Below are positions 19,986 through 32,859 of a stretch of 35,516 nucleotides of DNA, piece by piece. Numbering within the stretch: position 1 is the first letter of the stretch; every line of letters starts with the position of its first letter. The notes under the pieces were generated by a model. That model made no database searches. It saw nothing but the letters and a program-made list of their open reading frames with translations, and was not told the DNA's origin. The stretch is from an uncultured Flavobacteriaceae bacterium (GTDB lineage: Bacteria; Bacteroidota; Bacteroidia; Flavobacteriales; Flavobacteriaceae), in the NCBI GenBank assembly GCA_937923735.1, contig CALDUJ010000025.1, positions 1 to 35,516 on the forward strand. The letters are read 5' to 3'. Position numbers and translations under genes: made by a program.

Positions 19986-20039
19986 AAATACTTGTGGCTT
20001 AATTTTTGAATTGATAGTTTTATAATAATTTTTTAATCC

Positions 20040-20597
20040 ATGAACGAAGAGATACAATTTATAGTAGATACGGCTAAAGAAGCAATGGATAAAGCGCTTA
20101 AGCATCTAGAAAAGCAACTGTCTAACATAAGAGCAGGTAAAGCTAGCCCAGCAATGTTAGGTAGTGTTATGGTAGACTATTACGGCACACAAACACCATT
20201 AAGCCAAGTAGCAAATGTTAATACACCAGATGGACGAACCATTTCTATACAGCCTTGGGAAAAAAGTATGATTCAGGAAATAGAACATGGTATCATGTTG
20301 GCAAATCTTGGATTTAACCCACAGAATAATGGTGAGAGCGTTATTATAAATGTACCACCATTAACAGAAGAACGTAGAATGCAGTTAGCTAAACAGGCAA
20401 AAGCCGAAGCAGAAGATGCTAAGATTGGAGTACGTAACGCAAGAAAAGATGCCAATAACGATATTAAAAAAGTAGATGATATTTCTGAAGACCTTCAGAA
20501 AAATACAGAAGTAGATGTACAAACTCTAACGGATAAATACATTCAGCGAATAGATGACATCTTTGTTAATAAAGAAAAAGAAATCATGACTGTTTAA
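20040..20597 (+). CDS. frr: Ribosome recycling factor
   Basis: RRF of normal length (185 aa): HLEKQLSNIRAGKASPAML, the VDYYGTQTPLSQVANVNTPDGRT hinge region, IQPWEKSM, and the C-terminal helical segment with LTEERRMQLAKQAK and VRNARKDANNDIKK. With EF-G it splits post-termination ribosomes. It lies 54 nt after pyrH and is closed by its own terminator. Confidence 0.97.
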   Translation: MNEEIQFIVDTAKEAMDKALKHLEKQLSNIRAGKASPAMLGSVMVDYYGTQTPLSQVANVNTPDGRTISIQPWEKSMIQEIEHGIMLANLGFNPQNNGESVIINVPPLTEERRMQLAKQAKAEAEDAKIGVRNARKDANNDIKKVDDISEDLQKNTEVDVQTLTDKYIQRIDDIFVNKEKEIMTV

Positions 20598-20602
20598 TAT
20601 CC

Positions 20603-20628
20603 AAGCGACATATATTGTCGCTTTTTTT
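20603..20628 (+). terminator. Intrinsic terminator after frr
   Basis: AAGCGACA (20603-20610) pairs with TGTCGCTT (20616-20623) around a TATAT loop, and seven T follow. It ends the ribosomal/pyrH/frr block. Confidence 0.92.
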
Positions 20629-20665
20629 ATACGAATACATAATATGTCCCGTTAATACTGTTCTT

Positions 20666-21403
20666 ATGAAGCTATTAAAATATATATCGATTTTTGTTAT
20701 TGCCTTGCAAATCCCAAACGGATTCTCGCAATCCTATGATTTTGTTTCTTCAGAATTAATTCAGCTTAGTGATGATGATGTGGCAAAAATGAATATTATG
20801 ATTACTCCTGGCATTAAACTTTATAACGATAAAGGAAATCAATTAGGAATGGATCAATTATCATTAATGACCAATCCTGAATTCAGGCCTATTTTTTATG
20901 CCAACACTGATGGAAAAATAAAAGCGATAGTTTTTGAGAACAAACTTGAAAACCCAATTCTAGTCCAACACAACTCCGAAGCTGATTTTACAGAAGGCGA
21001 ATATGCTATGGATTTCCTCGCAGAAGATATGAATGGCAGTATTGTGAAACTATCTGAATTGCGTGGCAAAGTTGTAGTATTAAATTTTTGGTTTATAAAA
21101 TGTGCCCCATGTGTGATGGAAATGCCTGATCTTAACGAAGTTGTTAGTATGTACGATTCTGATGATGTAGTTTTTATCGGTATTACATTCGACTCAAAAG
21201 AACTTGTTGAACAGTTTTTACAATCCAAAGATTTTGAATATACTATTACTCCTAATGCTAATGATGCAATAAGTATTTATGGGGTGCAGAGTTTTCCAAC
21301 CAACATGGTGATTAATCAACAAGGACAAATTGTACTCAAAGAAATAGGTTACCGCACTAATATGAAAGATGTGCTAGTGTCAGCTATTAATAAACTCCTT
21401 TAA
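20666..21403 (+). CDS. TlpA-like secreted thioredoxin (thiol-disulfide oxidoreductase)
   Basis: The start is ATG 20666; an open upstream TTG lies inside the frr terminator and is rejected. The product (245 aa) has a signal peptide (about 1-21, ending GFSQ) and an N-terminal region of about 95 residues of unknown fold. A redoxin domain follows: FLAEDMNGSIVKLSELRGKVVVLNFWFIKCAPCVMEMP with the CxxC pair Cys146/Cys149, then the cis-proline loop SFPTNMV. Such proteins reduce or shuffle disulfides in the periplasm. The stop is 3 nt from the next gene, an outer-membrane barrel, so the oxidoreductase may serve that protein or its partners. Confidence 0.88.
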   Translation: MKLLKYISIFVIALQIPNGFSQSYDFVSSELIQLSDDDVAKMNIMITPGIKLYNDKGNQLGMDQLSLMTNPEFRPIFYANTDGKIKAIVFENKLENPILVQHNSEADFTEGEYAMDFLAEDMNGSIVKLSELRGKVVVLNFWFIKCAPCVMEMPDLNEVVSMYDSDDVVFIGITFDSKELVEQFLQSKDFEYTITPNANDAISIYGVQSFPTNMVINQQGQIVLKEIGYRTNMKDVLVSAINKLL

Positions 21404-21406
21404 TTA

Positions 21407-22672
21407 ATGGGTTTATCTCGTTTTCTGGTTTTTTGCATGCTAATTAGTTGTTGTAATAGCTTTGCTCAGAAACCCAATCAAGAAAACTCAAAAACCCAAA
21501 ATGATTCCGTTAAAAAGATTGAGCTAGCCAAAAGTCTAGGGAATGGATATTTGCCTTCGAAATTCTTTGATTTAGACTTACGCTATCTCATAAAATTTAA
21601 TCAATATGAAGGTCTGAGAACTGGCCTCGGAGGTGTCACAAACAAAAGATTTTCAGAAAACTTTAAAATTCAAGGATATACAGTGTACGGCTTTAAAGAC
21701 CATCGCTTTAAATATAGTATTGGTGCAGGTTTTAGGATTTCTGAAGCGAGTAATACTTGGCTTCATGCATCTTACACAGATGATCTTCAAGAAACTGGGA
21801 GTTCAAAATTCCTAACAGATAAACGGTTCTTTCAATTCTTCGAACCCCGCCTTATTAACATTGATTTGTTTCATAAACACATTACAAAAGCAATAACCCT
21901 AGAACATCGAATTTCAACAAAGATATTGACAGAAACACAACTATCAATTAGTAAAATAGACCCAACATATAGTTACACTTTTGACTTAGGAAGCGAAAGT
22001 TTCAATAATTATGATTTGAGCTTAGCAAGAATTTCCACTCAGTGGAATCCTTTTGATAGCTTTGATGGTGATGACACCATTTCAGGGTATCCTCAATTCA
22101 CCTTTCAATACACTCAAAGTTTTGAAAATCTTTTAAAGGGTAATTTTAATTTTTCAAAATTTGATTTTAGAACGGTTCAGAAATTTAAGCACCAAAATAA
22201 GGCTTCAACTGAATTTGTTCTCTCTGCAGGAATTGTAAGTGGAGAAGCGCCTATTACACATCTCTACCACGCCTACCCGAATAATGTGAACAAAGAAACT
22301 ATCCTCCAACGTTTCTCAGTTGCTGGCATCAATAGTTTTGAGACCATGTATTTTAATGAGTTCTTTTCTGATAGATTTGCAACGCTCCAGATTAAGCACA
22401 GACTAAAACCCTTTGATATATCAAGACGTTTTAAACCTGAGCTCGTGCTGATTTCTAGATATGCACTCGGAAATATGAATAATATCGACAGGCATCAAAA
22501 CATAACTTTTAACACACTGGAAAATGGCTATTCTGAATCTGGTTTTGAAATAAATAAACTGCTTTTTGGTTTCGGATTGAGTTTTGCTTACAGATATGGC
22601 GCCTATAACTTACCAGAATTCGAAGATAATTTTGCTTTCAAATTTACATTTAATATCAATCTTGAGAATTGA
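21407..22672 (+). CDS. Outer-membrane barrel resembling the C-terminal half of DUF5686 proteins
   Basis: After a signal peptide (about 1-20, ending SFAQ) and a polar linker, the sequence runs RYLIKFNQYEGLRTGLGGVTN, YTVYGFKDHRFKYSIGAGFR, and later FETMYFNEFFSDRFATLQIKHRL. These segments are typical of the DUF5686 beta-barrel. Full DUF5686 proteins also have an N-terminal carboxypeptidase-regulatory-like plug domain, which is absent here, and at 421 aa this looks like a barrel-only member. The function is unknown. It is almost fused to the TlpA-like gene upstream (3-nt gap). The family call rests on remembered motifs. Confidence 0.65.
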   Translation: MGLSRFLVFCMLISCCNSFAQKPNQENSKTQNDSVKKIELAKSLGNGYLPSKFFDLDLRYLIKFNQYEGLRTGLGGVTNKRFSENFKIQGYTVYGFKDHRFKYSIGAGFRISEASNTWLHASYTDDLQETGSSKFLTDKRFFQFFEPRLINIDLFHKHITKAITLEHRISTKILTETQLSISKIDPTYSYTFDLGSESFNNYDLSLARISTQWNPFDSFDGDDTISGYPQFTFQYTQSFENLLKGNFNFSKFDFRTVQKFKHQNKASTEFVLSAGIVSGEAPITHLYHAYPNNVNKETILQRFSVAGINSFETMYFNEFFSDRFATLQIKHRLKPFDISRRFKPELVLISRYALGNMNNIDRHQNITFNTLENGYSESGFEINKLLFGFGLSFAYRYGAYNLPEFEDNFAFKFTFNINLEN

Positions 22673-22713
22673 GTTTCCATAGTAGTTAAAGCTACTTATC
22701 CGTAGTATTTTTC

Positions 22714-22721
22714 TACCTTTG
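22714..22721 (+). promoter_or_regulatory. -7 box of the MMPL transporter gene
   Basis: TACCTTTG fits TAnnTTTG and lies 18 nt before the ATG. No clear TTG element is seen 17-23 nt upstream. Confidence 0.5.
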
Positions 22722-22739
22722 CGGGATTATAGGTAATTA

Positions 22740-25139
22740 ATGACCAAGCTTTTTTCTACAAATTTCTGGGAAACCGTTGCAAGACTTATTTTACGCAACA
22801 AAATCCTGATTCTCATCGTGGTTGCAGCAGCAACTATTTTTTTGGGCTATCAGTGGAAAAACATGCGATTTACCTATACTGAGGCCAATCTATTACCTGA
22901 TGAACACGAAGTAAATAATACCTATAATAACTTTCTTGATAAATTTGGTGAAGAAGGTAACCTCATTATTCTTGGTGTAAAAGACTCCACGCTTTTTACA
23001 GTTGAAAAACTAAATGCATGGAATAAACTATCCCATGAGTTTGGTAAATACGAAGAAATTGAAACTGTTGTTTCTCTAGGTGACCTCCAAAAATTAATAA
23101 AAAACACCAAAACTGAACAATTTGACATCGAACCTTTCATCAAGGATTCATTGTCTTCTATAAAGCAAGTAGAAACGCTTCAAAAAGAGTTGTTTCAAAA
23201 ATATCCTTTTTATGATAATTTCTTGTTCAACAAAAAAACTAAGACTGTAAGGACTGCACTCTACCTAGATAAGGCTATAGTTAATAAACCTGCAAGAAAA
23301 GATTTTATTGTGGATATCCTCATCCCAAAAGTGACTGAATTCGAGGAACGATATAATATGGATGTTCGGGTTTCGGGAATGCCTTATATTCGCACACTTA
23401 ATTCTCAGAATATAATAGATGAAATAGGCACTTTTATTAGTCTAGCGCTACTAGTTACTTCAATAATATTTTTCTTTTTCTTTCGATCTTATCGAGCCAC
23501 TTTTATCTCCATGATAGTTGTACTTATTGGAGTTGCTTGGACTTTTGGTATACTTGGGCTTCTTCAATACGAGATTACAGTACTTACTGCTTTAATCCCT
23601 CCACTAATTATTGTAATCGGAATTCCTAATTGTATTTTCTTAATTAATAAATACCAGCACGAAGTCAAGAAACATGGCAATAAAGTAAAATCACTCCAGC
23701 GTGTTATTACTAAAATTGGGAATGCTACATTAATGACTAACGTAACCACTGCATCAGGTTTTGCGACCTTTATTATTACAGACAGTAAGCTTTTAACGGA
23801 GTTTGGAATCGTCGCGTCTTTAAGTATTCTCGCCATTTTTATTTTATGCTTACTCATCATTCCTATCATCTATAGCTTTATGCCGCATCCAAAAGATAAA
23901 CATTTAGAGCATCTTAATAGGCGTTGGGTAAATGGATTTGTAGATTGGATGGAGCGGATGGTAAAGCATCACAAAATTACTATATATATCACTGCGGTTG
24001 TTTTATTGACTGTGAGTTTAATCGGCATCAATCAAATAAAAATATCGGGTAGTCTCATTGAAGACATGCCAAAAAAAACAGAGTTTTACAAAGACATTAG
24101 GTTTTTTGAATCGGAGTTTAATGGCATTATGCCATTGGAAATTATGGTTGACACAAAGCGTAAAAAGGGTGTTATGAAAATTGCGACGCTTAAACGCATG
24201 AATGAATTGCAAGAACTTATTGAGGAAACGCCAGAATTATCTAAACCGATTTCTGTTGTTGAGTTAGTTAAATATGCCAAACAAGCTTATTATAATGGCA
24301 ATCCAAAATACTATCAATTACCAACATCACAAGAAAATAGTTTCATTTTATCTTATGTAAAAAATTCATCATCTGATGTAAGTCTACTTAAAAATTTTGT
24401 AGACAGTACTGGTCAATATGCCCGTATCACGACATTTATGAAGGATATAGGTACTGATAAGATGGAACGCATTGAAGAAAATATTCAGAATAAAATTAGC
24501 AAAGCATTTCCCAAGGAGAGATATGAAGTCACTATGACGGGCAAAGCTTTAGTGTTTCAAAAAGGCACAAAATATTTGGTCAACAATCTGGTCTTATCCC
24601 TTTCGCTAGCGATATTCTTGATATCGCTTTTCATGGCTTATATGTTCAGATCATTCAGGATGATTATTGTTTCTTTGATTCCTAATTTACTTCCATTACT
24701 AGTAACTGCCGGATTGATGGGTTATTTGGGCGTCCCGATAAAACCGTCAACTATTTTGGTATTTAGTATTGCTTTTGGGATATCCGTAGATGATACGATA
24801 CATTTCTTAGCTAAATACAGGCAGGAACTACAGGCCAATAATTGGAAGATTCGAAAATCTGTATATGCTGCCTTACGCGAAACTGGAGTTAGTATGTTCT
24901 ATACGTCAATCGTTCTCTTCTTTGGTTTTTCAGTATTCACTATTTCTAGTTTTGGTGGAACTGTAGCCTTAGGTGCTTTAGTTTCTGCCACACTGTTATT
25001 TGCCATGTTAGCAAATTTATTGTTATTACCGTCACTCTTATTATCGTTAGAAAGAAGTATTGCCAATAAAGAGGTTCTAAAAGAACCTAACTTCAAAATT
25101 ATTCCTGAAGAGGAGGAACAAAACAAATCTGAATCATAA
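22740..25139 (+). CDS. MMPL/RND-family transporter
   Basis: The 799-aa protein has the two-fold RND layout. A first helix (about 17-38) precedes a large periplasmic loop and five helices including TVLTALIPPLIIVIGIPNCIFLINKY. Another loop-and-helices half begins at about residue 415 and contains SIAFGISVDDTIHFLAKYRQEL. The Asp684-Asp685 pair in the second half is the proton-relay site of MMPL proteins; the equivalent position in the first half reads IPNC, so only one half keeps it. MMPL members move lipids or hydrophobic compounds; the cargo here is unknown and no membrane-fusion or outer-membrane partner is adjacent. A terminator at 25276-25298 ends its transcript. Confidence 0.88.
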   Translation: MTKLFSTNFWETVARLILRNKILILIVVAAATIFLGYQWKNMRFTYTEANLLPDEHEVNNTYNNFLDKFGEEGNLIILGVKDSTLFTVEKLNAWNKLSHEFGKYEEIETVVSLGDLQKLIKNTKTEQFDIEPFIKDSLSSIKQVETLQKELFQKYPFYDNFLFNKKTKTVRTALYLDKAIVNKPARKDFIVDILIPKVTEFEERYNMDVRVSGMPYIRTLNSQNIIDEIGTFISLALLVTSIIFFFFFRSYRATFISMIVVLIGVAWTFGILGLLQYEITVLTALIPPLIIVIGIPNCIFLINKYQHEVKKHGNKVKSLQRVITKIGNATLMTNVTTASGFATFIITDSKLLTEFGIVASLSILAIFILCLLIIPIIYSFMPHPKDKHLEHLNRRWVNGFVDWMERMVKHHKITIYITAVVLLTVSLIGINQIKISGSLIEDMPKKTEFYKDIRFFESEFNGIMPLEIMVDTKRKKGVMKIATLKRMNELQELIEETPELSKPISVVELVKYAKQAYYNGNPKYYQLPTSQENSFILSYVKNSSSDVSLLKNFVDSTGQYARITTFMKDIGTDKMERIEENIQNKISKAFPKERYEVTMTGKALVFQKGTKYLVNNLVLSLSLAIFLISLFMAYMFRSFRMIIVSLIPNLLPLLVTAGLMGYLGVPIKPSTILVFSIAFGISVDDTIHFLAKYRQELQANNWKIRKSVYAALRETGVSMFYTSIVLFFGFSVFTISSFGGTVALGALVSATLLFAMLANLLLLPSLLLSLERSIANKEVLKEPNFKIIPEEEEQNKSES

Positions 25140-25242
25140 AAAAAGCCGCCAACTCAAGAGTCAGCGGCAATAGTATGATAAATCCCCATTTATCATAGAG
25201 CTTGATAATTAAACCTTATCAAGTAACATATTGATTAATAGC
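25138..25242 (-). ncRNA. Candidate small RNA, about 105 nt, three hairpins and terminator
   Basis: Read on the minus strand, a promoter-like TTG-N17-TATCTTTG is followed by three consecutive stems. H1 is CTTGATAA/TTATCAAG (plus 25201-25223). H2 is a perfect 10-bp TATGATAAAT/ATTTATCATA (25174-25196). H3 has GCCGC/GCGGC outer arms (25145-25168) and runs straight into seven T, a proper intrinsic terminator only in this direction. Two tiny ORFs lie inside: MLLDKV (25209-25229) and MINGDLSYYCR (25161-25196), the second stopping within the terminator stem. The RNA is antisense to the 3' UTR of the MMPL gene. I do not recognise an Rfam family. Confidence 0.55.
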
Positions 25243-25246
25243 AAAT

Positions 25247-25275
25247 CAAAGATAGTAATAAAATCAATGCGCAAT
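25247..25275 (-). promoter_or_regulatory. Minus-strand promoter of the candidate small RNA
   Basis: On the minus strand, TATCTTTG (plus 25247-25254) matches the -7 consensus exactly. ATTG (plus 25272-25275) lies 17 nt upstream as a -33 element. No protein gene on this strand starts downstream. Confidence 0.6.
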
Positions 25276-25298
25276 AAGGGGAAAAAACCCCTTTTTTT
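25276..25298 (+). terminator. Intrinsic terminator of the MMPL transcript
   Basis: AAGGGG (25276-25281) pairs with CCCCTT (25288-25293) around six A, followed by T to 25298. It separates the MMPL 3' UTR from the asnS promoter. Confidence 0.85.
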
Positions 25299-25333
25299 AA
25301 ATAATTCGCTGAGGCTAAAAAACATTAAAGAAT

Positions 25334-25341
25334 TATCTTTG
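25334..25341 (+). promoter_or_regulatory. -7 box of asnS
   Basis: TATCTTTG matches TAnnTTTG exactly, 21 nt before the ATG. The -33 position is poor (TTCG at 25305-25308). Confidence 0.55.
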
Positions 25342-25362
25342 CACCTTTAATTATAAGATACA

Positions 25363-26796
25363 ATGAAAACCAGTAAAGTAATTGCGTTATTATCTCAGGA
25401 TAAAAAGCATGTAGAAGTAGATGTAAAAGGATGGGTAAGAACTTTTAGAGCAAATCGTTTTATTGCTCTAAATGATGGCTCTACAATTAATAATATCCAA
25501 TGTGTTGTTGATTTTGAAAATACTGATGAGGATACCCTAAGACGGATTACAACTGGTGCGGCAGTGCATATAAAAGGTTTACTTGTAGAAAGTCAGGGAA
25601 AAGGACAGACTGTAGAGATACAAGTATCTGAAATTGCTATTCTTGGAGATTCCGACCCTGAAGCGTATCCTATTCAGCCAAAGAAACACTCCATGGAATT
25701 CCTCCGTGAGAACGCACATTTAAGAGTTCGTACAAATACTTTTAGTGCTGTCATGCGTTTACGCTCTGCGTTGGCTTTTGCAGTGCATCAGTTTTTTCAA
25801 ACAAATGGTTTTAATTATGTAAATACGCCCATAATTACCGGAAGTGATGCCGAAGGTGCAGGAGAAATGTTTAAAGTAACTTCTTTAGATTTAAAGAATC
25901 CACCTAAAGACGATAAAGGCAATATCGATTACTCAGAAGATTTCTTCGGAAAAGAAACTAATTTAAGTGTTTCTGGGCAATTAGAAGCAGAAACTTACGC
26001 CATGGGATTAGGTAATGTGTACACATTCGGTCCAACGTTTAGAGCAGAAAATAGCAATACCACGCGCCACCTATCTGAATTCTGGATGATTGAACCAGAA
26101 ATGGCGTTCTACGAATTGGATGACAATATGGATTTGGCTGAAAAATTCATAAAGTACGTCGTGCAATACGCTCTAGACAATTGTAAAGATGATTTAGAGT
26201 TCCTAAACAAACGCCTGCTAGATGAAGAAAAAACAAAACCTCAAGCTGAACGCAGTGAACTATCTCTTTTAGAGAAATTACATTTTGTTACTGATAACAA
26301 TTTTAAACGTGTTACCTATACAGAAGCTATTGAAATACTGAGAAATTGTAAGCCAAATAAGAAAAAGAAATTTCAATATTTAATTAATGAATGGGGAGCA
26401 GACTTGCAAAGTGAGCATGAACGCTTTTTAGTAGAGAAGCATTTTAAATGTCCGGTAATATTATTTGATTACCCAGCTAACATTAAGGCCTTCTATATGC
26501 GATTGAATGAAGATGGAAAGACCGTTAGAGCTATGGATATATTATTCCCAGGCATTGGAGAAATTGTTGGTGGATCCCAAAGAGAAGAACGCCTAGATGT
26601 ATTAAAATCTAAAATGGCGGCCTTAGATATAGATGAAAAAGAACTGTGGTGGTACCTAGATTTGCGTCGATTCGGGACTGCTGTACATAGCGGATTTGGT
26701 CTTGGTTTTGAGCGCTTGGTAATGTTTGCAACAGGAATGAGCAATATACGTGATGTCATTCCGTTTCCAAGGACTCCTCAAAATGCAGAATTCTAG
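25363..26796 (+). CDS. asnS: Asparaginyl-tRNA synthetase
   Basis: A class IIb synthetase of 477 aa. The N-terminal OB-fold anticodon-binding domain (about 15-105) includes [18 protein letters not shown]. The catalytic core has the motif 2 region [25 protein letters not shown] and motif 3 [16 protein letters not shown] followed by IRDVIPFPR. The [14 protein letters not shown] segment and lack of an aspartate-specific insertion favour AsnRS over AspRS. It charges tRNA-Asn. It has its own -7 box upstream and a strong terminator downstream. Confidence 0.97.
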
Positions 26797-26816
26797 TCCT
26801 TCACAACAAAAACATA

Positions 26817-26855
26817 AAACAATCTACATACTACCATTTGTAGATTGTTTTTTTT
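26817..26855 (+). terminator. Intrinsic terminator after asnS
   Basis: A perfect 12-bp stem, AAACAATCTACA (26817-26828) with TGTAGATTGTTT (26839-26850), ends in a run of eight T. Confidence 0.95.
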
Positions 26856-26880
26856 AAATTTATACAAATACCTTGTCCTA

Positions 26881-28338
26881 ATGTTAAAGCAGTATTTACA
26901 ATTTAAATTATCACAAAAATTATCTCCTCAACAAATACAGTTGATGAAGCTAATTCAACTGCCTACGCAAGCATTCGAACAGCGCATAAAACAAGAGTTA
27001 GAAGAGAATCCTGCATTAGAAAGTGGCAAAGAAACTTCCGATGATTTAGACGACACGTTTGACAATACTAAGGATGAGTATGATGACAATGAGAGTATTG
27101 CTGCAGAAGACATTAATGTAGATGACTACTTGAGTGATGATGAAATACCTGATTACAGAACTCAAACAAGTAATTACAGTGCCGATGACGATGAAAAAAG
27201 TATCCCTTATGCCTCTGGAATGTCATTCGCTCAGCATTTAAAGAACCAATTAAATACATTTCGTCTAGACGACGAAGAACAGCAGATAGCTGAGTTTTTG
27301 GTTGGTAGTGTTGATGAAAGTGGTTACATAAGACGTTCTCTAAGCGACATTATGGATGACTTGGCCTTCACTCAAAACGTATACACTACAGAGGAAAAAA
27401 TCGAAGAGGTTTTGATGATAGTCCATAAACTCGACCCTTCTGGTGTTGCTGCTAGGAATCTTCAGGAATGTTTATTAATCCAGTTGCGTAGAAAAACTCA
27501 AAACCCTGATGTAGAGCTAGCAACTGATATTATTGAAAAAGCTTTTGACCACTTCACAAAGAAGCATTATAAAAAATTGCTTCAAAAATTTGATGTTACC
27601 GAAGTTCAGCTTAAAGATGCTATCGAAGAAATAGAACGTCTAAATCCAAAACCTGGAGGGTCTTATGCTGGTAATACAAGAATGGTAGAACATGTAGTTC
27701 CTGATTTCGCTATAAAAATTGTAGAAGGTGAACTTGAACTAACCCTAAATGGACGTAATGCTCCAGAACTTCATGTATCTCGTGAGTACAATAACATGAT
27801 GAAGGGCTATAAAGAAGCTAAAGATAAGTCCAAATCTCAAAAAGATGCCGTGCAGTTTATCAAACAAAAATTGGATGCTGCCAAATGGTTTATTGAAGCT
27901 ATAAAACAACGTCAGCAAACGCTTTTTGTAACTATGAGTTCGATAATGCATTACCAGAAAGAATACTTTCTAACTGGTGATGAACGAAAACTTAGGCCAA
28001 TGATTCTTAAAGATATTGCAGACGAAATTGAAATGGATGTGTCTACTGTTTCTCGAGTTGCTAATAGTAAATATGTAGATACACCTTACGGTACTAAACT
28101 CATTAAAGAATTCTTTAGTGAATCTATGACTAATGATAAAGGAGAGGAAGTATCAACCAGAGAAATTAAGAAAATTCTTGAAACTGTTATTATTGAAGAA
28201 GACAAGAAAAAACCCCTAACGGATGAAAAGCTTGCTAAAATTCTTAAAGAAAAAGGCTACCCTATAGCACGTCGTACAGTTGCAAAATATAGAGAGCAAT
28301 TAGATTTTCCTGTAGCTAGACTTCGTAAAAAGATGTGA
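26881..28338 (+). CDS. rpoN: RNA polymerase sigma-54 factor
   Basis: The start is ATG 26881; an in-frame TTG at 26845 lies within the asnS terminator. The protein (485 aa) begins with the activator-interacting Q/L-rich region I (MLKQYLQFKLSQKLSPQQIQLMKLIQLPTQAFEQRIKQELEENPAL), then an acidic spacer (about 45-100). The core-binding domain (about 110-290) and the DNA-binding domain follow, with the helix-turn-helix DIADEIEMDVSTVSRVANSKYV and the RpoN box ARRTVAKYRE. It directs transcription from -24/-12 promoters with bacterial enhancer-binding proteins. The stop overlaps the next gene's ATG by one base. Confidence 0.97.
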   Translation: MLKQYLQFKLSQKLSPQQIQLMKLIQLPTQAFEQRIKQELEENPALESGKETSDDLDDTFDNTKDEYDDNESIAAEDINVDDYLSDDEIPDYRTQTSNYSADDDEKSIPYASGMSFAQHLKNQLNTFRLDDEEQQIAEFLVGSVDESGYIRRSLSDIMDDLAFTQNVYTTEEKIEEVLMIVHKLDPSGVAARNLQECLLIQLRRKTQNPDVELATDIIEKAFDHFTKKHYKKLLQKFDVTEVQLKDAIEEIERLNPKPGGSYAGNTRMVEHVVPDFAIKIVEGELELTLNGRNAPELHVSREYNNMMKGYKEAKDKSKSQKDAVQFIKQKLDAAKWFIEAIKQRQQTLFVTMSSIMHYQKEYFLTGDERKLRPMILKDIADEIEMDVSTVSRVANSKYVDTPYGTKLIKEFFSESMTNDKGEEVSTREIKKILETVIIEEDKKKPLTDEKLAKILKEKGYPIARRTVAKYREQLDFPVARLRKKM

Positions 28339-28946
28339 TGCACCATATCTTAAAAAGCATATCATATATATTTCATCCATTATTAATGCCTATTCTTGGT
28401 GTTATTTTTTACTTCTCCAAAACACCTCGATATATTCCAATCCCTATTATAAAGGCTAAGCTTGTCTCCATTTTTATATTAACCGTAGTTTTACCTGTGC
28501 TTCTATACTATTTGTTAAAAACTCTAAAAAGGGTAGACACTATAAATTTAGAGACTACAAAAGAGCGTATCATTCCGCTAGTTTTAAACGCGGTAATTAT
28601 AGTTCTTGTAATACAACGTATACTCCCCCAAAACGAAGTTATTGAATTATATTATTTCTTTTTAGGAATATTATTATCCACCATTGCTTGTTTAATACTT
28701 GCTATTTTAAAATTTAAAGCAAGTATTCATATGATTGCTATTGGCGGTATATTTATGTTCTTCATTGCTCTCAGCATACATTTTAGCATTAATATAAACG
28801 GAACGATAGCATTTCTATTTATTCTTATAGGAGCTATAGCTTCTTCAAGGCTTTATCTTAAAGCGCATGATAATATAGAGTTACTAATAGGCTTTTTCGT
28901 TGGACTCTTTCCTCAACTATTAATGTTAAATTATTGGCTACAATAA
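28338..28946 (+). CDS. PAP2-like multi-pass membrane protein
   Basis: The start is taken as ATG 28338, which overlaps the rpoN stop (TGATG); a GTG one codon earlier is possible. The 202-aa product has about six membrane helices and almost no soluble loops. ASIHMIAIGG and SSRLYLKAHDNIELLIGFFVG are placed like motifs 2 and 3 of PAP2 phosphatases (SGH and SRxxxxxHxxxD), but the Gly of SGH and the last Asp are changed. It may therefore be a degenerate, non-catalytic PAP2 relative. Its 3' end overlaps the convergent barrel gene by 9 bp. Translational coupling to rpoN is likely. Confidence 0.65.
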   Translation: MHHILKSISYIFHPLLMPILGVIFYFSKTPRYIPIPIIKAKLVSIFILTVVLPVLLYYLLKTLKRVDTINLETTKERIIPLVLNAVIIVLVIQRILPQNEVIELYYFFLGILLSTIACLILAILKFKASIHMIAIGGIFMFFIALSIHFSININGTIAFLFILIGAIASSRLYLKAHDNIELLIGFFVGLFPQLLMLNYWLQ

Positions 28947-29630
28947 ATAAAACATTAGGCCTATTTTAATAGATCTCATCTCAATTGCTTTATTGCTTAG
29001 CGTTGCTTGGCCATTAAATATAGAACTAAGCCCATAATACAAATGAAAATTCCATGTATTGTAACCTAAACTAGCCGTTAAGCCATATTGAAAATCGTTA
29101 AAGTGGTCTATATTACTGTATTGCTCTTTACTAGGGGAACCTCTAAATTTGGTTGTATGGGTAAATAAGTATCCAACCTTAAAACCAGCATATATCCTCC
29201 AGAATTTATAGTCAGAAACCGTCGAGCTTCGCCATCTAAATTCAAATGGCAATTCTACTAAGTGCAAAGCAAATTTGTTTTTCGTAAAGTCATCATTATT
29301 TGTAAGAACTGAATAAGTGACATTTTTCATATCGTCTTTACCTATTTTTAAATTTTGATTAAATGAGTTAGCAGTATAACCAAGACCTATGCCTAAAGCA
29401 ATATTTCTTTTTTTATTCAAAGGAATATCTCTAATAAAACCGATATGAAATCCGCTTGAAAATCCGCTCTGAGATATACTATCAGGTCTTTTTACCATCA
29501 AATTATAAGTAACCCCAGCATATATTTGATCCTCTCTATAAAGCGAATCGATTTCAACAAACTTATTATCCTGGGCAAAACTAGGAATTACAGTGAAAAA
29601 AATGAATATGAATGAGAGTACAAATTTCAT
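28938..29630 (-). CDS. PorT-family outer-membrane beta-barrel protein
   Basis: A signal peptide (about 1-19, ending SFAQ) is followed by a small eight-strand-type barrel: AGVTYNLMV, SSGFHIGFIRDIPL, ALGIGLGYTANSF, LVELPFEFRWRSS, IYAGFKVGYLF and a final aromatic strand KIGLMFYLL. The ELPFEFRWR segment and overall size resemble the PorT/PF13568 family. PorT itself belongs to the type IX secretion system, but it is usually found next to ubiE, which is absent here, so this is more safely a paralogue than PorT/SprT itself. It lies downstream of the exb genes but is separated from them by a terminator. Confidence 0.75.
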   Translation of the reverse strand: MKFVLSFIFIFFTVIPSFAQDNKFVEIDSLYREDQIYAGVTYNLMVKRPDSISQSGFSSGFHIGFIRDIPLNKKRNIALGIGLGYTANSFNQNLKIGKDDMKNVTYSVLTNNDDFTKNKFALHLVELPFEFRWRSSTVSDYKFWRIYAGFKVGYLFTHTTKFRGSPSKEQYSNIDHFNDFQYGLTASLGYNTWNFHLYYGLSSIFNGQATLSNKAIEMRSIKIGLMFYLL

Positions 29631-29690
29631 AATAACTCAACGTGTATTTAAATGTAACGTTTTTACTGACGAATTAATTTTTTATAACTA

Positions 29691-29724
29691 AAAAAGGCAC
29701 TCTTTTCAGAATGCCTTTTTTTTT
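29691..29724. terminator. Intrinsic terminator after the exb operon
   Basis: AAAAAGGCA (29691-29699) pairs with TGCCTTTTT (29712-29720). TCT/AGA continue the stem beyond a C-A mismatch around a TTTC loop. A- and T-runs on both sides make it work in either direction; the exbD transcript on the minus strand is the one that needs it. Confidence 0.85.
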
Positions 29725-29744
29725 ATAACTATAAAATCAAGGTA

Positions 29745-30218
29745 TTAGTTTTCTAAAGCATCACCTTGTCTGGTTGTATAATTAATTTTAAGAGCATTTT
29801 CTTTTCTTAGCTCTTGCTTAATATCAGATACAAGTCCCATATTAGCTTCACTATCGACTTTCAGAGCAGTAGTTAAGAATGGTATTAACTCTTCACGTTT
29901 GCTCGCTCTTTCTTCTCTGATAAAGCTTCTAACGTCGCTCACATTAGCTAACTTATCATTTAACTGAATACGTGGCTGATCTCCAAGATTTCTATACTGA
30001 GAACTTGGTTTTCCCGCGTAAATGTACATTACTAAATCTTTCTTAGCCAGTTTCTCGACCTGATTTGCCTGTGGCAATTTGTTTTCAATCATCAAGGTGT
30101 TCTCTCTCATTACAGTTGCAACCATGAAAAAGAATAATAGCATAAATACAATATCTGGTAATGATGCTGTGTTTACTGCTGGTAAATCGCCTCCTTTTTT
30201 CTTTTTAAATTTAGACAT
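29745..30218 (-). CDS. exbD: ExbD/TolR-type biopolymer transport protein (second copy)
   Basis: The typical layout is a short basic cytoplasmic N-terminus, a single membrane helix (about 23-38) and a periplasmic domain. Asp22 in SLPDIVFMLLFFFMV corresponds to the proton-carrying aspartate of ExbD. The protein is 157 aa. With the adjacent ExbB it uses the proton gradient to energise TonB-dependent outer-membrane receptors. It lies 13 nt after the other exbD copy. Two different ExbD subunits next to one ExbB are common in Bacteroidota and suggest a heteromeric ExbD pair. Confidence 0.9.
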   Translation of the reverse strand: MSKFKKKKGGDLPAVNTASLPDIVFMLLFFFMVATVMRENTLMIENKLPQANQVEKLAKKDLVMYIYAGKPSSQYRNLGDQPRIQLNDKLANVSDVRSFIREERASKREELIPFLTTALKVDSEANMGLVSDIKQELRKENALKINYTTRQGDALEN

Positions 30219-32771: not shown

Positions 32772-32859
32772 CAGAGAGGAAGGGATTCGAACCCTCGATA
32801 CGCTATTAACGTATACACGCTTTCCAAGCGTGCGCCTTAAGCCACTCGGCCACCTCTCT
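32772..32859 (-). tRNA. tRNA-Ser (anticodon GGA)
   Basis: On the minus strand: acceptor stem AGAGAGG/CCTCTCT, D arm with GCCGAGTGGCTTAAGGC, anticodon stem CACGC/GCGTG around TTGGAAA (anticodon GGA), a long variable arm (TATACGTTAATAGCGTAT) typical of serine tRNAs, and T arm GAGGG-TTCGAAT-CCCTT. CCA is not encoded. No consensus promoter is visible upstream. Confidence 0.95.

Follow-up and report, generated by a model that had tools for sequence, protein, structure and literature searches.

Small-RNA sponges, or decoys, mimic the target site of a regulatory RNA and thereby titrate it. FopS and GibS of Bacteroides are multicopy sRNAs in which a conserved single-stranded 5' part is followed by an intrinsic terminator; the FopS RNAs are described as paralogues, and the part of that report available to us describes no family of complementary RNAs and makes no mention of a sponge (PMC11697453). 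Within the Flavobacteriaceae, Rfp18 of Flavobacterium psychrophilum is a structured sRNA predicted to pair via its third stem-loop, according to the available part of a transcriptome study whose text, to that extent, leaves the tag described below unmentioned (PMC9723704).

We analyzed a stretch of 35,516 nt from an uncultured Flavobacteriaceae bacterium (the window). On its minus strand, between the gene for an MMPL-family transporter and asnS, the sequence TTG-N17-TATCTTTG precedes a pair of hairpins and then an intrinsic terminator that has seven T residues (Table 1). Comparison between genomes gives good support to the reading of this segment as a small-RNA gene. The larger finding, absent from a preliminary description of the locus made from the sequence alone, is that the unpaired first 13 nt of the window RNA, GCUAUUAAUCAAU, recur as the first bases of several other RNAs. 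RNAs that begin with this tag are referred to here as A RNAs, and those that carry its complement are referred to as B RNAs. In the literature searched, of which coverage was partial, we found no description of the tag TGCTATTAATCAAT or of such a network.

Compared with the available description of FopS and GibS, the A RNAs are alike in being multicopy, in having a single-stranded 5' part, and in ending at an intrinsic terminator; FopS RNAs are described as paralogues, whereas the A RNAs are accompanied by mRNAs with the sense tag and by B RNAs with the complement. Rfp18 and the window RNA, compared by description only, are structured sRNAs of the same bacterial family, for which the F. psychrophilum study describes sigma-A promoters of the same type, but the pairing of Rfp18 is predicted via its third stem-loop, while the window RNA would, as proposed here, pair via its 5' tag. 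The A RNAs differ from the sponge class in arising from several independent loci per genome, in carrying the tag at the predicted 5' end, and in being family-wide. The 6S-Flavo and Flavo-1 RNAs are, like the window RNA, RNA motifs of the same bacterial group, but their Rfam models do not match it.

TABLE 1. Features of the window at and around the small-RNA gene
Feature	Position	Strand	Basis or remark
TTG of the -33 element	25272..25274	-	Direct sequence reading
Spacer from TTG to TATCTTTG	17 nt	-	Direct sequence reading
-7 element TATCTTTG (TAnnTTTG)	25247..25254	-	Sequence; in relatives, TATATTTG / TAGCTTTG / TATCTTTG
Predicted small RNA, 105 nt, predicted +1 at 25242	25138..25242	-	Fold, conservation, -7 box spacing (PMC9723704)
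Unpaired 5' tag GCUAUUAAUCAAU, common to other RNAs	25230..25242	-	Unpaired in 8 of 8 folds
Hairpin H1, 8 bp	25201..25223	-	Predicted fold; in other lineages, new sequence with pairing kept
Hairpin H2, 10 perfect bp, GGGG loop	25174..25197	-	Predicted fold; comparison of lineages
Intrinsic terminator, 10-bp stem and 7 T	25138..25168	-	Stem 25168-25145, T residues 25144-25138
MMPL-family transporter gene (PF03176)	22740..25139	+	3' UTR would be antisense to the sRNA
asnS (class II D/K/N tRNA synthetase, PF00152)	25363..26796	+	Pfam; name asnS assigned by eye
TATCTTTG belonging to asnS	25334-25341		
Terminator-like GGGG-A6-CCCC repeat with T-run	25276..25300	+	Possible 3' end of the MMPL transcript; immediately upstream of the sRNA promoter

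The preliminary description had proposed a probable undescribed minus-strand small RNA of about 105 nt with its own promoter, three stacked stems, and a T-run found on the minus strand only, and the sequence bears these features out: TTG and TATCTTTG are separated by 17 nt, the stems are H1, H2 (the middle one, with 10 perfect pairs), and the terminator stem, and the T-run is confined to the minus strand. In the available part of the F. psychrophilum study, the sigma-A box is placed at -12 to -5 (PMC9723704); by this spacing, +1 would be the G at 25242 and the RNA would be 105 nt long, with a promoter of the Bacteroidota type (TATCTTTG at -12 to -5 and TTG 17 nt upstream). A generic sigma-70 scan returned 6 promoter-like sites against 7.1 in shuffled sequences, and the sRNA promoter was not among them; the case for the promoter thus rests on the Bacteroidota consensus and on conservation. 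The predicted fold, in which nt 1 to 19 are unpaired, is more stable than those of 200 of 200 dinucleotide shuffles (z, -5.1). The RNA has its own terminator and contains no ORF of at least 60 aa, ORFs under 60 aa being beyond the cutoff. Beyond the terminator (positions 20000 to 30000), all minus-strand ORFs of at least 60 aa lie inside plus-strand genes, in line with the original claim that no protein gene on this strand needs these signals; a leader of a minus-strand gene was therefore rejected.

With Rfam 15, the whole window returned two tRNAs only at gathering score. Near the gene, 12 weak hits were obtained at E values up to 10, with 10.8 to 20.3 bits against cutoffs of 39 to 67, and neither 6S-Flavo nor Flavo-1 was among them. 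At 20 A or B loci elsewhere, 5 hits were obtained at E values up to 0.05, the best with 36.4 bits (BSnc120, cutoff 114). FopS was matched neither near the gene nor at these 20 loci, in a release that may or may not include a FopS model. Known Rfam families were thus rejected for the window, A, and B RNAs, none being found at gathering score, and the search against 6S-Flavo, Flavo-1, and all other families that the preliminary description had proposed leaves the window RNA undescribed. The two tRNA genes lie at 608-680 and 32772-32859 (-).

An RNA at the identical place and on the same strand between MMPL and asnS is present in eight genomes of four lineages: G000, G001, and G002 (the window genus); G079 and G259 (one genus); G023 and G311 (one genus, G311 being Zhouia amylolytica); and the metagenome-assembled genome (MAG) IP29b_bin.47 (L175). 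Promoter, tag, stems, and terminator are kept across these lineages. All eight folds leave at least 18 nt at the 5' end unpaired ahead of two hairpins; the MAG copy was folded as 101 nt, and its terminator was thereby cut off. H2 reads TATGATAAAT-GGGG-ATTTATCATA in genomes of the window genus; G079 and Zhouia have AGGTT-TGGGGG-AACCT, and the MAG has TAAGT-TGGGGG-ACTTA. These are three different stems in four lineages, with the pairing and a run of four or five G residues in the loop retained. The sequence of H1 is likewise replaced in the other lineages with its pairing kept, so that a look for compensatory changes, as envisaged at the outset, finds both stems replaced and still paired. The TGATAA/TTATCA arms shared by H1 and H2 are indeed present in the window genus, as had been noted, but only there among the eight genomes; the exchange of partners between the hairpins that had been suggested is not conserved. 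The GGGG or GGGGG loop run of H2 (25174-25197 in the window, and in relatives), which persists while the stems change, may be a second binding site.

The tag recurs widely. Without requiring a promoter, we counted 134 copies of the 13-mer GCTATTAATCAAT in 16 genomes picked for carrying it (2 to 12 per genome), against 1 for the reversed control. A TAnnTTTG box matching at least 5 of 6 positions lies at exactly -12 from 47 of the 134 tags, with 0 to 6 at each of 52 other offsets, and a 6-of-6 box lies there at 20, with 0 or 1 at other offsets; a good -7 box is missing at 87 of the 134 sites. Most copies (122 of 134) fall outside the chosen ORFs of at least 100 aa. With up to two mismatches allowed, TANNTTTGNNNNGCTATTAATCAAT has matches in 195 of 397 Flavobacteriaceae genomes, and the reversed control is nonzero in 53 of 397; in G000, G007, G070, G228, and G231, the true pattern has 6 to 12 matches and the reversed control has 0. 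G311 and G465 are one genome, and G158/G466 and G071/G468 are apparent pairs, which were not mixed in the 16- and 397-genome counts. A scan of named genomes with TTTGNNNTGCTATTAATCAAT found at least 119 stretches, and the 80 loci listed are mostly from Flavobacteriaceae; the few outside the family among the matches listed (Microcoleus, Calothrix, and a Clostridia MAG) look like chance. Many weak matches elsewhere of a 144-nt query from the locus, the G023 copy among them, span query positions 12 to 54, which hold the promoter and the tag; these may be other tagged loci or chance. Tag variants differ mostly at the 3' end and tend to be locus specific, and the common core is GCTATTAA.

The tag often stands at the predicted transcription start of terminator-ended small RNAs from unrelated loci and of mRNA leaders, and the A RNAs have little in common beyond it. 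A strong terminator follows the forward tag directly at 6 of 134 sites. Recurrent tag loci lie after the type III glutamine synthetase gene (cluster c1), either before an outer-membrane-like gene (c3, assigned by eye) or before an AIR-synthase-related gene (c4); others lie after c0 genes, after c2 or c6 genes (with a LuxR-type response regulator as the c2 representative), after a GSCFA-family gene (c13), and between asnS and MMPL. The Pfam identities of c1, c2, c4, and c13 come from one representative each. Tagged leaders precede genes for curlin-repeat proteins (PF07012; E values, 1.7e-19 and 6.4e-26), whose ATG codons lie 24 and 27 nt downstream of +1. Lacinutrix (L316) has two such tagged genes with curlin repeats, one of 500 aa (Curlin_rpt) and one with a similar open part of 396 aa, and an uncultured Olleya (L121) has one, of 381 aa (Curlin_rpt). 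In several genera, the glutamine synthetase locus instead holds an ORF of 45 to 50 aa, which may be a shortened relative. In other cases (L184 in Robertkochia, L150 in Galbibacter, L277 in Zhouia, L117, and L134), the tag starts a longer terminator-ended RNA in place of a small ORF, located in L184, L150, and L277 between the type III glutamine synthetase and AIR-synthase-related genes. Tandem tagged small RNAs, with the tag GCTATTAATTAGTTCTTA and variants, were seen at L462, L463, L442, and G371:C97:76798-77269; in G046, G036, and G019, they lie about 10 to 14 kb from asnS.

The octamer pair 5'-GCUAUUAA / UUAAUAGC is recurrent in Flavobacteriaceae, where both sides co-occur. A strong terminator comes 0 to 6 nt after the complement ATTGATTAATAGC at 18 of its 134 sites, compared with 14 of 3977 positions used as controls, in a test that misses terminators with loops of more than 9 nt. 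One of the B RNAs, B1, is a small RNA from the opposite strand in the interval that separates purE (PF00731) from an M3-peptidase gene (PF01432), with a complement ending in UUAAUAGC. At 50 purE loci, made up of the 30 best matches to one query and 20 picked by hand, many of the latter with A hits, TTAATAGC precedes the terminator exactly at 32 and with one mismatch at 3, and it is degenerate or missing at 15. An exact TAnnTTTG starts 55 to 68 nt before the seed end in 32 of 46 candidate B elements; downstream of it lie, in order, a variable region with a hairpin, the seed, and the terminator. The B sequences that went into the alignment and the model had been selected for the octamer, and its invariance in those 33 is a selection effect. 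Further copies of the complement lie at mRNA 3' ends, before terminators. A second set of 17 B elements, reached via the model built on octamer-chosen B1 RNAs, has TTAATAGC exactly in 14 and in variant form in 3; 11 of them lie about 23 to 43 kb from asnS, 3 lie elsewhere, and 3 have no asnS position. Two B copies with different extensions are present in G152, G070, G199, and G462.

Complements that match a tag of the same genome exactly or nearly so are found before terminators. In the window genus, B1 at purE is degenerate (it reads ATTGATTAGTA in both G000 and G001), and a single B element whose octamer is intact lies at a second locus of G001; no B1 was seen at purE in G023, a genome with the window RNA. 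A candidate B site that seemed to precede asnS in W. vincentii and Hanstruepera was rejected: judged by their translations, the genes there resemble aspS and have an RND pump before them, which makes this another locus; gene cluster c9 lumps asnS-like and aspS-like synthetases. At L263 and L261 (G000) and L287 (G001), ATTGATTAATAGC apparently lies between inverted hairpin arms, not directly before a terminator. Beside purE in G000 (L468), the genome of the window, a further tag-like GCTATTAATCATT and a terminator-like hairpin stand next to the degenerate B1.

We examined whether A and B are linked. A covariance model of 33 B1 RNAs matched 109 of 397 genomes at E values of 1e-7 or less, and at least two A hits were present in 101 of these 109 genomes, against 34 of the 288 others (odds ratio, 94, with kinship between genomes not corrected); conversely, 34 of the 135 genomes with at least two A hits have no strong B hit. 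At E values of 0.001 or less, the model matched 323 of 397 genomes, which we read as mostly unspecific terminator signal. Pairing was predicted for 58 of 92 tags from 17 genomes, coding-like or unrelated-looking tags being dropped and with them all tags of G000, G001, G023, G465, G206, and G185; in this set, which favors pairing because G000 and G001 have degenerate B1 and none was seen in G023, the duplex of a tag with B1 of its own genome averaged -11.9 kcal/mol, against -3.6 for shuffled tags. The complementarity extends to 18 nt in one A-B pair, from G031. Swapping B1 among genomes gave no significant loss of predicted pairing (P = 0.40). Two groups of 8 genomes (16 in all, with G087 left out) differ in B1 type, and their tag extensions shift with it as expected (interaction, -2.4 kcal/mol; P = 0.0016 by permutation of labels, kinship not corrected), but group 2 A tags have better mean pairing with group 1 B1 (-12.9) than with group 2 B1 (-11.2). 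The core of the tag varies too little for compensatory changes in it to be assessed. None of 6 genomes yielded Hfq (PF17209) in a search that was positive in 5 of 14 control genomes, so that no chaperone is known. Computation shows a conserved small-RNA gene, the tag at predicted starts, the complement before terminators, and the co-occurrence of the two.

The shared tag and the set of complements suggest an undescribed control network based on base pairing. We propose that the window transcript would start exactly with GCUAUUAAUCAAU and would belong to the A RNAs, whose common 5' tag is carried by small RNAs and by mRNA leaders, those of curlin-repeat genes included. The B RNAs, i.e., the small RNA at purE and the M3-peptidase gene and certain mRNA 3' ends, with the complement just before the terminator, would pair with the 5' ends of A mRNAs near the start codon and thereby hinder translation. 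The A small RNAs, including the window RNA, would act as decoys that take up B RNAs, thus releasing the A mRNAs. We infer the pairing of A with B, the repression of tagged mRNAs by B, and the titration of B by tagged small RNAs, and we put this explanation as a whole at just under an even chance.

It is conceivable that the roles are reversed: the A small RNAs would be a FopS-like multicopy set whose 5' seed acts on target mRNAs, with the B RNAs as antagonists or targets. FopS RNAs, as far as the available description goes, are laid out in the same way, with many copies of an unpaired, conserved 5' part that leads into a terminator (PMC11697453), and B elements do lie at mRNA 3' ends, an ORF stop being found 4 to 102 nt upstream in 17 of 17 second-locus elements. 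The complement is located 10 to 60 nt before a start codon at 8 of 134 sites; however, the tag itself leads into an ORF within 10 to 60 nt at 16 of 134, curlin-repeat genes included, and these cases are left unexplained if the roles are reversed, the difference between the two counts being twofold only. We regard the reversal as unlikely, though far from negligible. Improbable in our view is a third reading, in which the tag works as a DNA element or a protein-binding site (at +1 to +13, a downstream promoter element or an operator; alternatively, a 5' site for an RNA-binding protein) and the complement would serve the same factor. Its position exactly at the predicted start site, the near invariance of its core, and the failure to find Hfq would all fit such an element, but for a start-site element, one would not expect a strand-specific complement ahead of terminators, carried by an RNA that has a promoter of its own.

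The sRNA overlaps the 3' side of MMPL fully, and the preliminary description had presented it as antisense to the MMPL 3' UTR; a local antisense RNA, or a device for asnS or MMPL only, is nevertheless very improbable. We inspected a further 28 loci from other genera, chosen as the best matches to asnS in the 198 of 199 genomes that bear the gene; G079, G259, G023, and G311, all of which have the RNA, are not among them. MMPL is kept upstream at 27 of the 28, and the tag occurs within two mismatches at none of these 27, from which the RNA is absent, while it is found at loci with different neighbors. Antisense control of MMPL as the main or general role of the RNA thus falls away, and the expectation that the stems would be conserved in relatives keeping the gene order holds for the four lineages and fails at the 27 further loci. 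Among the loci examined, the window RNA at MMPL-asnS appears limited to the four lineages. That no RNA is made, and that a chance promoter happens to lie beside hairpins, is hardly credible given that promoter, tag, stems, and terminator are kept in four lineages with stem replacements that still pair.

To our knowledge, post-transcriptional control in Flavobacteriaceae has been little studied. Extending the reading in which the A small RNAs are decoys, we tentatively envisage, with somewhat less than even confidence, a Flavobacteriaceae-wide RNA-RNA network in genomes of which six were searched for Hfq and none was positive: an octamer right at the 5' end of many small RNAs and of some mRNAs for surface proteins, partly of the curlin type, would pair with the complement located directly before the terminators of a conserved small RNA and of mRNA 3' ends, and decoys and regulators would arise at many loci via the gain of a tag of 8 to 13 nt. 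If this is true, complementary tags, at 5' ends on one side and before terminators on the other, would mark out a defined regulon that includes curlin-type proteins and operates where Hfq was not found. Such a regulon would be open to testing via a change of eight bases, and decoy RNAs would have arisen repeatedly in this family by the gain of a short 5' tag.
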